A stretch of DNA of 64,000 bases, taken from positions 1,212,005-1,276,004 of the forward strand of contig NZ_LR027558.1 in assembly GCF_900605005.1 (NCBI RefSeq), in the 5' to 3' direction. The position numbers and the translations under genes were made by a program. Source of the stretch: Acidipropionibacterium timonense (GTDB taxonomy: Bacteria > Actinomycetota > Actinomycetes > Propionibacteriales > Propionibacteriaceae). Under the pieces are notes generated by a model. The model made no database searches. It saw only the letters and a list, made by a program, of their open reading frames with translations, and was not told the origin of the DNA. Of the stretch, positions 22,084 through 61,957 are shown in pieces (position 1 is the first letter of the stretch; the number at the start of each line of letters is the position of its first letter).

Positions 22084-22168
22084 GAGGGTGCTTTCGACGG
22101 AGTGGACGCTGGCGCCCACATGCTACCCGCCGACGCCGACAGGAACCGAACCCGCTGATCGTCGGTGC

Positions 22169-23188
22169 TCAGAACAGCCCGTCCGAGGACGGTGAGTCCT
22201 GCCTCAGACCCAGATGGGCCCAGGCCCGATCGGTGGCCACCCGGCCACGCGGGGTACGCATGAGGAACCCCAGTCGGACGAGGAACGGCTCGGCGACCTC
22301 CTCGACCGTCTGCGGCTCCTCCCCCACGCTGATCGCCAGGGTCGACAGGCCCACCGGGCCACCTCCGAACTTCTCACAGACCGCGGTGAGGACCGCCCGG
22401 TCGAGACGGTCCAGGCCGAGCGGGTCGACCTCGTAGAGATCGAGGGCGGCCGCCGCCACCGCGGGGCTCACCGGTGAGTGCCCGGCGACGTCGGCGTAGT
22501 CGCGGACGCGGCGCAGCAGCCGGTTGGCGATACGTGGGGTGCCCCGCGAGCGGCTGGCGATGGTCGACGCCGTGCCCGCGGCGAGGTCGATGCCGAGGAC
22601 CCGCGACGAGCGGGTGACGATTCCGGCGAGGTCCTCGGGATCGTAGTAGTCGAGCTGTGCGGTGAACCCGAAGCGGTCACGCAGCGGTCCGGGCAGCAGA
22701 CCAGCGCGGGTCGTCGCCCCGACGAGGGTGAACGGCGGGATGTCGATGGGGATGGCCGTCGCGCCCGGACCCTTGCCGACGACGACGTCGACCCGGAAGT
22801 CCTCCATGGCCAGGTAGAGCATCTCCTCGGCCGGCTTGGACATGCGGTGGATCTCGTCGAGGAAGAAGACCTCCCCCTCGGTGAGGGAGGAGAGGATGGC
22901 CGCCAGATCGCCGGCGTGCTGGATGGCCGGTCCGGACGAGATGCGGATGGGAACCCCCATCTCGGCGGCGATGATCATGGCCAGGGTCGTCTTGCCGAGC
23001 CCGGGCGGGCCCGAGAGGAGGACGTGGTCGGGCACGGCGTGGCGGCTGCGCGCGGCGGCGAGGACGAGTCCGAGCTGTTCGGAGACCCGTCGCTGACCGT
23101 GGAAGTCGTCGAGGACGCCGGGACGCAGCGCGGCCTCCTCAGCCTTCTCGGGCGGTTCGGCCCACGGGGTCACCGGTGAGCTCTCCAT
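22169..23188 (-). CDS. ruvB: Holliday junction branch-migration helicase RuvB
   Basis: A 339-residue AAA+ motor that, as hexamers with RuvA, drives branch migration of Holliday junctions. Walker A is [11 protein letters not shown], Walker [10 protein letters not shown], and sensor 1 GATTRAG. The C-terminal winged helix follows ([20 protein letters not shown]). ATG 23188 has AGGGAGGA at good spacing. It is separated from ruvA by about 190 nt that consist mostly of a 27-bp minisatellite, unlike the tight ruvA-ruvB junction usual in bacteria. Confidence 0.97.
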
Positions 23189-23245
23189 CGTGGTCCTCCC
23201 TCATGAGTCGTATGGCTCGGTGCGCCGGGCAGGGCGATCCCCTCC

Positions 23246-23400
23246 AGTGCGCGAGACTGCGCAACTCCACCCAGTGCGCAAGACTGCGCAACTCCATCTA
23301 GTGCGCAAGACTGCGCAACTCCATCTAGTGCGCAAGACTGCGCAACTCCATCTAGTGCGCAAGACTGCGCAACTCCATCTAGTGCGCAAGACTGCGCAAC
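23246..23400. repeat. 27-bp minisatellite spanning the ruvA stop codon
   Basis: Six units begin at 23246, 23273, 23300, 23327, 23354 and 23381, exactly 27 bp apart; the last is partial. The inner units are identical and the first two are slightly diverged. Each holds two copies of the self-complementary hexamer TGCGCA 4 nt apart, so each can fold into a small hairpin. On the minus strand a unit reads TTGCGCAGTCTTGCGCACTAG followed by ATGGAG (split here as codons for LRSLAH, stop, ME). The 23381 unit encodes the end of RuvA; the others lie between ruvA and ruvB. Confidence 0.95.
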
Positions 23401-23987
23401 GCCGCCCGCATGAGCACCCCGAGCGACACCTCCGGATTCTCCTCCTTGAGCGGGGCCACCGACTCGACGGCACGCTCGGCATCCCGCGACGACCATCCCA
23501 GACCCTCCAGGCCCTCGGCCAGCTGCTCACGCCAGGGCTCGGCAGTCGTCGGCCGGGCAGGGCTCGGGGCGTCCTCCCCCGACCCCAGGAGCACTGCCTT
23601 CTCCCGCAGCTCGAGGACGAGTTTGGCCGCGCCCTTGCGCCCGATCCCCGGCACCGAGCACAGGGTCGCCAGGTCCTCGGTGCGCAGGGCGGCAGCGAGC
23701 CGGTCGGCGTCGAGCACCGAGACGATGGCCATGGCCAGCCTCGGCCCGACCCCCGAGGCGGTCTGGACGAGGTCGAAGGCGTCCCGGTCGGTGGCGCGGT
23801 CGAAGCCGTACAGGGTGAGCGAGTCCTCGCGCACGACGAGGGAGGTCTCCACGGTCATGGTCTCCCCCGGCCGTGCCGCTGCCGCGGTCGCCGGTGTGCA
23901 CTGGACGCGCAGACCGACCCCGGCGAGGTCGAGGACGACCCAGGTGGGGCCGGCGGCCGAGACCGTGCCGCGGAGGTGGGAGATCAC
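23379..23987 (-). CDS. ruvA: Holliday junction DNA-binding protein RuvA
   Basis: A 202-residue RuvA: an N-terminal OB fold (VISHLRGTV), two helix-hairpin-helix motifs ([13 protein letters not shown] and [16 protein letters not shown]), and a C-terminal RuvB-binding domain joined by a flexible Pro/Ala linker. It binds four-way junctions and loads RuvB. GTG 23987 overlaps the ruvC stop as GTGA and is preceded by GGAAGGA; the longer upstream frame is not coding. The last residues, LRSLAH, and the stop codon are encoded by one unit of the 27-bp minisatellite. Confidence 0.96.
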
Positions 23988-48950: not shown

Positions 48951-49862
48951 TCAGGACTCCTCGTCGGCGACAGGGCTCCTGCTCTCGTCGGAGGCGGGGT
49001 CCGACCTGTCGCGGGAGGCGGGGCCCGAGCTGTCGCCGGAGGCGGGGCCCGCGGTCTCGGCGCCGTGGTGACGGCGGGACAGGACGACGAGGACGACGAC
49101 GGCGACGGCCCAGACGATGACCGAGGTGTACGAGTTGATCCGCCAGCCGTCGACATGGTTGGCCGGGTCGATGCGCAGGCGTTCGACGAAGAACCGTCCC
49201 GTGGTGTACACGACGACGTACAGCGCGAAGAGGCGCCCGTGACCGAGCTTCCACCGCCGGTCGGCCCACAGGAGGAAGCTCGCCCCGAGGCCGTTCCAGA
49301 TGAGCTCGTAGAGGAAGGTCGGGTGGAAGGTGGCGTACTGCTCGTAGCCGAGCGGACGGTGGTCCGGGTCGATCCGCAACCCCCACGGCAGGCTCGTGGG
49401 GCGCCCGAAGAGTTCCTGGTTGAACCAGTTGCCGAGGCGGCCGATGGCCTGGGCGTAGAGGATGCCGGGGGCCAGCGAGTCGGCCACGAGGGTGAAGCTC
49501 AGGTGACGGTGTCGGCAGACGAGCCAGATGGCCAGGGCGCCCCCGGCGATCGAGCCCCAGATGCCCAGACCTCCCTGCCAGATGAAGAAGGCCCGGTACC
49601 ACTGGCGTCCCGGGCCGAAGTAGAGCTGATGGTCGGTGATGACGTGGTAGACCCTGGCGCCGATGATGCCGAAGACGACTCCCCAAGTGGCGAGCACCTC
49701 GAGGTCCTCGGCCTTGCCGCCGCGGGCCACGTACCGCCGGGAACCGAGCCAGTAGGCCAGGACGATCCCGATGAGGATGCAGATGGCGTACATGTGGATC
49801 CGCACCGGACCGATGTCGAACCCACTCCAGGTCGGACTCGGGATGCTCAGCAGGGTCGTCAC
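48951..49862 (-). CDS. lgt: Phosphatidylglycerol--prolipoprotein diacylglyceryl transferase
   Basis: A 303-residue integral membrane enzyme that attaches diacylglycerol to lipobox cysteines such as that of the binding protein in this window. Seven hydrophobic segments are visible. The Lgt signature is [13 protein letters not shown], preceded by [14 protein letters not shown], and the active-site region [11 protein letters not shown] follows. The C-terminal cytoplasmic tail is a low-complexity Ser/Asp/Pro stretch with repeated SGPAS/SDPAS. GTG 49862 is the likely start, with CACAAT 6 nt before it and no ribosome site. It follows trpA, as in many actinobacteria. Confidence 0.96.
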
Positions 49863-61409: not shown

Positions 61410-61479
61410 CCGTGCCCCGGTCGGGCGCGGCGGGCGACGAGGTCGCCGTGGCCCGGATCGTGGCGACCGGGGTCGTGGA

Positions 61480-61746
61480 GGCCACGTCGCTCCGCAAACC
61501 GTCACCTCCCGCCCCCCACGGGCCACCCTGCTCCAGAACCTGCACCGTGCTCCTGGAATCGCCACTGCCCGTGGCCCGGGAGGCCACTTCGTTCCGGAAA
61601 CCGTCGCCGTCCGCAGCCCGGGACGCCACATAGCTCCAGAAGTTGTACCAGGCTCCACGAACCGTCACTGCCGAGGCCGGGACCGGGGCCACTCTGCTCC
61701 GAAAATCGCCCCCTCAGGGGCCGTAGGGCCCACCTGGCTCCAGAAC
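61480..61746. repeat. Spaced GCTCC/GGCCAC repeat array
   Basis: GCTCC or GTTCC occurs at 61489, 61530, 61549, 61591, 61633, 61652, 61696 and 61737, and once more at 61756 in the hairpin. Spacings are 41, 19, 42, 42, 19, 44, 41 and 19. Most copies are preceded by GGCCAC and followed by NGAA. On the minus strand the units read GGTTYTGGAGC-N4-GTGGCC with variations. The spacing is close to two and four turns of B-DNA. Confidence 0.75.
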
Positions 61747-61867: not shown

Positions 61868-61957
61868 GGGCAGGGTTCTCACGTGGACCACCGGACTGGG
61901 CAGGGTTCTCACGTGGACCACCGGACAGGGCCCGATTCCCAGGTGGAGCGCGGAACA
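61868..61957. repeat. 30-bp tandem repeat
   Basis: Two nearly identical 30-bp units (61868-61897 and 61898-61927), GGGCAGGGTTCTCACGTGGA... ending CCACCGGAC(T/A), are followed by a degenerate third (61928-61957). Each full unit contains the palindrome CACGTG. The unit resembles the units of the array to the left in opposite orientation. Confidence 0.85.

Follow-up and report, generated by a model that had tools for sequence, protein, structure and literature searches.

The stop codon of ruvA in Acidipropionibacterium timonense is spanned by a minisatellite which is probably one of a genome-wide burst of arrays grown by local slippage, often seeded by hairpins at gene ends and tolerated there. 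The window (the whole stretch of 64,000 nt that was analysed; G+C 69.5%, genome size 2.82-Mb) was screened with TRF, which placed a tandem array at 23246-23400 on the minus strand, with a period of 27 bp, 5.7 copies, 97% matches and a score of 289. None of 40 first-order Markov surrogates of the window scored above 71, so the array consists of head-to-tail units in the range of ~10-100 bp beyond chance. The flanking genes, ruvA (23379-23987, Pfam RuvA_N and RuvA_C) and ruvB (22169-23188, starting ATG GAG, Pfam RuvB_N and RuvB_C), lie on the same strand. We take the gene order on this strand to be yebC, ruvC, ruvA, ruvB, yajC, secD, where yebC, ruvC, yajC and secD were named by eye from their protein sequences.

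Read along the minus strand, the array takes in the final 22 nt of ruvA, among them the stop, and extends 133 nt into the spacer between ruvA and ruvB. Its first unit, U0 (23379-23399), comprises the last 18 coding nucleotides of ruvA (TTGCGCAGTCTTGCGCAC, encoding LRSLAH) and the stop TAG at 23379-23381. Three identical units follow, U1-U3 (23298-23378), each made of ATGGAG, the same 18 nt and TAG, and each forming a closed mini-frame (MELRSLAH and a stop). U4 (23271-23297) begins with ATGGAG and has TGG in place of the stop, and the diverged last unit, U5 (23244-23270), reads GTGGAG TTGCGCAGTCTCGCGCAC TGG, with CTT changed to CTC and no stop. The first-pass annotation had given every unit the last six residues of RuvA, a stop and an ATG GAG. 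This is complete for U1-U3, but TAG is retained in only 4/6 units and ATGGAG in only four, GTGGAG being found in one and ruvA codons occupying that place in U0. TAG and ATG abut at four places, after U0, U1, U2 and U3. Exact periodicity is kept over 128 bp at most.

Relatives were drawn from 22 family loci examined for the junction, of which L054 yielded none and at L048 the match was to another stop; the 13 relatives counted exclude the distant loci L038-L054. None of the 13 carries a repeat at the ruvA-ruvB junction (TRF on each junction, minimum score 30), a comparison that the first-pass annotation had recommended. In the relatives, RuvA terminates in LRSLA with at most one further residue, so the unit corresponds to the tail of ruvA and the first bases past its stop. 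The array core (TGCGCAGTCTTGCGCA) has six genome-wide matches at up to two mismatches, every one inside the ruv array. A 17-mer searched with one mismatch allowed in 197 family genomes, this one included, matched the ruv array and, besides it, single sites at three places in two further genus-group genomes. Both the absence from the corresponding place in 13/13 relatives and the confinement of the core to this locus point to a local origin. The earlier suggestion of a young array is supported: it is a homogeneous and probably young minisatellite built from the 3′ end of ruvA. The first-pass annotation would have counted the same array at unrelated loci against its reading, and the core was matched only here (up to two mismatches). 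Dispersed palindromic repeats of the REP type were rejected since all six core matches lie inside the array, and an operator array of a regulator since the core is absent from other promoters of the genome (up to two mismatches in 16). A shared mobile sequence was rejected because the core is restricted to the ruv locus and because the units of the 37 arrays described below are no more alike than shuffled units.

That the copy number is an artefact of assembly has next to no probability. What speaks for it is a set of six tandem duplications in 400 kb, exact or almost so and with a period of 137-138, which resemble unmerged contig overlaps; against it, the ruv array has a period of 27 bp and diverged end units. 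Moreover, its longest periodic stretch of 128 bp falls short of the 137-138-bp period, so an assembler working with such a word length should resolve the array. The scan for these duplications took in the window and the initial 400 kb sampled from this genome, their period lying outside the array filter given below. They are of different sequences, exact over 127-137 bp, and are found at L059 4830-5100, L065 11107-11382 (near an integrase-core gene), L066 6774-7055, L070 7089-7365 and L073 4457-4735 and 15470-15738.

The first-pass annotation took the array for a tandem duplication of an original ruvA/ruvB junction. From the ruvA stop to the ruvB ATG there are 190 nt, of which 5 x 27 = 135 come from the units; the leader before ruvB is thus lengthened by 135 nt, as had been anticipated, and 55 nt are left. 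These 55 nt (23189-23243, minus strand) contain the ruvB ribosome-binding site GAGGGAGG (by eye) and are homologous to the 53-nt spacer of relatives. Spacer lengths among the relatives are 53 nt in seven Cutibacterium genomes, 73-104 nt in five Acidipropionibacterium-type genomes and 166 nt in G004. Against the C. avidum and G003 spacers, the 55 nt show 38 and 40 identical columns of 59. In alignments covering nine of the 13 relatives, no shuffle out of 300 was as good for C. avidum, G003, S24M or G005, and only one, two and six of 300 were as good for C. namnetense, G001 and C. porci. Similarity to the A. jensenii spacer is weak (22/300 shuffles as good), and the match to that of A. thoenii is no better than shuffles (192/300 as good). 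Since the 55-nt spacer aligns with the relatives' 53 nt and keeps the ribosome-binding site and the ATG GAG, the two genes were probably already separated in the ancestor. Judged from the sequence, the start of ruvB is neither shifted nor consumed by the array. The array does not abut ruvB, which starts 55 nt below it, and in view of the intact ruvB start and spacer a duplicated junction was rejected as the origin. Among the 13 relatives ruvB starts with ATGGAG in six, GTGGAG in five and GTGGAA in two, so both forms seen in the units are used as ruvB starts, a point in favour of a duplication; the resemblance of the unit's ATGGAG to this start is best taken as coincidence, six bases allowing neither proof nor exclusion.

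A variant of the same idea, in which the duplicated junction acts as a ladder of termination and reinitiation that passes ribosomes from ruvA to ruvB, is highly improbable. The four abutting TAG ATG pairs would suit it, as would the ATG GAG start of ruvB and the GTGGAG of U5, which is the ruvB start in 5/13 relatives. The 55 nt of ancestral-like spacer before ruvB argue against it, and no ribosome-binding site was seen by eye close before the unit ATGs. U4 and U5 have no stop, so the ladder breaks at its last two units and leads into an out-of-frame overlap: the frame opened by the ATG of U4 (23139-23297, minus strand, 52 codons, predicted only) would run through U5 and the spacer and overlap the ruvB start out of frame.

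The abundance of such arrays was assessed in 800 kb beyond the window (864 kb in total) and in 400 kb from each of four relatives (1,600 kb), keeping arrays with a period of 10-70, at least 85% matches and a TRF score of at least 100 (also 60), with overlapping rows collapsed. Strong arrays (score at least 100) number 37 in this genome and 16 in the four relatives (binomial P 3e-7), or 42.8 per Mb against 20.0, 12.5, 2.5 and 5.0, and are therefore 2 to 17 times commoner here than in the sampled relatives. Eleven of the 37 lie inside genes, nine across a stop codon, none across a start and 17 in intergenic or edge positions, one gene-edge array being counted with the intergenic ones. None of the relatives' 16 arrays spans a stop or a start (nine stop-spanning arrays against none, P 8e-5). 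At a score of at least 60 there are 57 arrays here (12 across stops, none across starts) and 51 in the relatives (four across stops, three of them in G004, and two across starts), so the tendency is not entirely limited to this species. Sequence similarity among the units of the 37 arrays does not exceed that among shuffled units, so each array grew out of local sequence. Loss of NucS was rejected as the cause of the burst, since the NucS family is matched in 9/9 genus-group genomes, this one included. Loss of SbcD does not set this genome apart: the family (TIGR00619) gives a match below cut-off in all nine genus-group genomes (G000-G008) alike, which suggests a diverged SbcD-like protein. 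Elsewhere in the window, a 24-bp repeat of 2.8 copies lies inside a predicted gene at 48985-49051, its period divisible by 3, and two arrays, at 61477-61672 (103 bp, 1.9 copies) and 61868-61947 (30 bp, 2.7 copies), are neighbours near the window end.

Besides ruvA, the genes whose stops are spanned are lexA, rpoA, a whiB gene and those for a LuxR-type response regulator, a biotin carrier protein, an exonuclease-domain protein, a weakly response-regulator-like protein (below the Pfam cut-off) and a flavin-containing amine-oxidase-family protein. These nine arrays begin 9-39 nt before the gene end, stop included, and their units are mutually unrelated. Periods range from 25 to 39 bp, being 25, 26, 26, 26, 28, 29, 33 and 39 in the eight other than ruvA. 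The recurrence of this architecture at lexA, rpoA, whiB, the biotin carrier gene and others speaks against the role specific to recombination that the first-pass annotation had proposed, and the tuning of recombination finds no support in this analysis. Importance had also been attached to 27 as a multiple of 3. The first stop ends translation whatever the period, so a multiple of three is unnecessary for RuvA. Periods are divisible by 3 in 11/11 arrays inside genes and in only 3/9 across stops, and selection for a unit that keeps the frame was rejected because the other eight stop-spanning periods are mostly not multiples of 3. Matching 3′ ends were compared in relatives for four of the nine loci, and arrays were present in 0/8 for rpoA, 0/8 for whiB, 0/13 for ruvA and 0/1 for lexA, whose ends were readable in 2/9 genomes (this one and G004). 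LexA itself has a close copy only in G004 (79% identity), and seven other genus-group genomes give 32-43% matches (L217-L225); divergence or replacement of LexA inside the genus group may account for this.

Hairpins are a common property of the stop-spanning units. Perfect stems average 5.6 bp in these units, against 4.1 in shuffles and 3.9 in pseudo-units laid over other stops of the same genome (0/400 as long on average in each case). The excess is smaller for arrays inside genes (26/200 shuffles as long on average) and in spacers (10/200). Each ruv unit can form a perfect stem of 6 bp (shuffle mean 3.5, P 0.013). The first-pass annotation held that the array adds hairpins; this stands for the individual unit, but the complete leader, when folded, gains no stability over its shuffles (z = +1.43; 184/200 shuffles fold at least equally well). 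Slippage promoted by hairpins is an established mechanism, and the long stems fit it. Two of the nine units (lexA and the LuxR-type regulator) have no long stem, which counts against the slippage reading.

The same stems might instead have been selected, gene-end hairpins being amplified since several of them improve transcript ending or mRNA stability. We regard this as very unlikely. In its favour are the unusual stem lengths themselves, which neither 400 shuffles nor 400 draws of other stops equalled on average, and the position of the rpoA array. Downstream of rpoA (L208-L216), eight relatives have a strong G-rich hairpin (GCAAGGGGG...CCCCTTGC, by eye), and at this place the present genome has its 26-bp stop-spanning array. 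There are only nine arrays, however, two of them without long stems, and hairpins favour slippage even in the absence of selection. A scan at the ruv array gave no terminator-like site, and ruvA-ruvB looks operonic, so that the ending of a transcript there would presumably be harmful.

The kinds of genes involved speak against plain neutrality. Genes for regulators, RNA polymerase or repair make up 5/9 by a strict count (ruvA, lexA, rpoA, whiB, LuxR-type regulator), compared with 5/40 controls (Fisher P 0.011), and 7/9 when, in a loose count, the exonuclease-domain and weakly response-regulator-like proteins are taken in as well (Fisher P 0.0003); the category was set after the list was seen and the sample is small. 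The 40 controls were drawn at random from genes followed by a gap of 20 nt or more, and 9/40 have no Pfam family. Those counted in the category were a sigma factor, a UvrD-like helicase, a GntR regulator, a response regulator and a LacI-like protein, and an integrase-core (transposase-type) gene and a translation factor were left uncounted. Pure neutrality does not predict this richness, which therefore counts against it. One could then suppose that the stop-spanning arrays are a selected set, in which hairpin-forming 3′ ends of regulator and repair genes were independently amplified into length-variable elements that tune transcript ends or downstream expression, the ruv array having replaced a damage-inducible promoter of ruvB. 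We consider this proposal quite unlikely.

Placement of the arrays bears on the same question. Were the 37 arrays placed at random anywhere, they would span 3.2 stops and 2.0 starts, compared with nine and none observed; the excess at stops counts against the slippage reading. When the 26 arrays outside gene interiors are placed at random there, 10.9 are expected across stops, 7.2 across starts and 7.9 in intergenic sequence, compared with 9, 0 and 17 observed (stop to start 9 to 0 against 10.9 to 7.2, P 0.011). If gene interiors are closed to arrays, stop-spanning arrays are thus close to the neutral expectation and it is the start-spanning ones that are missing. Their absence is as expected if such arrays harm the next gene. 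Genes were called with a simple hexamer gene finder, which makes starts approximate (that of ruvB was 15 nt off) and so bears on the start-spanning count.

Taken together, these data are most consistent with slippage at gene ends. A stretch of 27 bp, comprising the last ruvA codons, the stop and a few spacer bases, would first have been duplicated in this lineage and later expanded to some six copies. The probable mechanism is replication slippage or unequal exchange, aided by the TGCGCA-N4-TGCGCA hairpin. The ruv array would be part of a burst across the genome, of which the sampled relatives have fewer arrays or none. Outside gene interiors, arrays would persist in spacers and across stops, where the upstream protein is unaltered, with none found across starts. 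At the ruv locus the effect on RuvA or RuvB is probably slight, ruvB being at most 135 nt further from ruvA. We infer slippage as the cause, the hairpin as the seed and near-neutrality alike. Inspection of the junction sequences by eye revealed no microhomology to account for the initial duplication of 27 bp, which counts against this reading, and the presence of NucS leaves the burst unexplained by NucS loss.

The ruvA-ruvB spacer of relatives carries a motif that this genome does not. The mycobacterial P1 DNA-damage promoter, of the PafBC type, has been described as tTGTCRgtg-8 nt-TannnT (PMC5656591). A related pattern, TGTCR-N11-(T/C)AnnnT, was found in the spacers of 13/13 relatives (L007, L008, L009, L010, L011, L012, L013, L017, L019, L023, L024, L036 and L037), with 9/9 scored positions in 12 and 8/9 in G004; the scoring string had been loosened at the -10 after the relatives were inspected, and their -10 is the published TAnnnT in 5/13 and CAnnnT in 8/13. 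Only one of 2,000 random 60-nt stretches of G003 reached 9 on this score. The motif is absent from the spacer of the present genome, where the best match is 6/9, the score most often reached by random 190-nt stretches drawn from this genome. Its presence in both neighbouring groups suggests that it was lost here, and in the relatives it is possibly a separate damage-inducible promoter of ruvB. Genome-wide, P1-like matches number 29, compared with 12 for the reversed pattern. Frames after 16 of the 29 sites were inspected and 15 gave a row, with gene names assigned by eye. Several sites precede housekeeping-looking genes, and one, with a mismatch in the first bases, lies 45 nt before a frame for a RecA-like protein. 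Another P1-like motif (TGTCGGCGTCGGCGGGTAGCAT) is found at 22120-22141 on the minus strand, between ruvB and the yajC-like frame and directly upstream of the latter; it could be due to chance, as 0.26 are expected in the window and 23/100 window shuffles also match.

The missing motif points to a change of possible consequence in this region, which counts against the slippage reading. It also speaks for supposing that the array and the missing P1-like promoter alter ruvB expression, copy number setting distance, RNA folding or out-of-frame translation and thereby tuning RuvB. To this may be added the distance of 190 nt between ruvA and ruvB, compared with 53 in seven Cutibacterium genomes, and the three mini-frames followed by a fourth that overlaps the ruvB start out of frame. 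There is also a precedent in Mycobacterium tuberculosis, where MIRU copies in the senX3-regX3 spacer, with promoter activity, are reported to drive regX3 (PMC4213456). We nevertheless judge such a regulatory leader unlikely. ruvB retains its own ribosome-binding site, and the leader shows no excess folding. Similar arrays stand at gene ends outside the ruv locus, two of them in convergent spacers where there is no downstream leader, and the 166-nt spacer of G004, which has no repeat, indicates that a long distance alone is tolerated. A scan for one promoter type found no sigma-70-like promoter between 23150 and 25500, nor is there a P1-like match in the array, and a new promoter within the array was rejected on these grounds.

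On its own, the ruv locus is thus an ordinary and probably young minisatellite, and the wider pattern across the genome is the more useful result. The features that first drew attention, the repeated stop codon and the multiple of three, are to be expected where slippage at gene ends is tolerated. As independent events that arose naturally, the arrays lend themselves to studying how tandem duplications are seeded by hairpins in high-GC, NucS-carrying bacteria, and they are candidate typing loci for the species.

Lastly, the array can be set beside known systems. Stop-spanning arrays of this kind were not found among titles and the opening lines of abstracts in the open-licence literature on ruvA/ruvB repeats, stop-codon minisatellites, Cutibacterium MLVA and MIRU. 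MIRU of the M. tuberculosis complex are one dispersed sequence family, with small frames whose stop and start adjoin. The ruv array resembles the element of senX3-regX3 as a tandem repeat in the spacer between two same-strand genes and in its short frames with touching stop and start (TAG ATG). It is not a MIRU, because its unit does not form a dispersed family and its core is found at the ruv locus only. P1/PafBC promoters are matched by the ruvA-ruvB spacers of the relatives and not by that of this genome. By the features tested, with one genome per species, the ruv array is a bacterial minisatellite. Like the VNTR loci used in MLVA typing, the arrays of this genome have head-to-tail units of 20-40 bp, near-identical inner copies and a diverged edge copy, and lie mostly outside gene interiors or, inside genes, have periods divisible by 3. 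They differ in their density, which exceeds that of the sampled relatives (42.8 vs 2.5 to 20 per Mb), and in that 9/37 repeat the stop codon of a gene.
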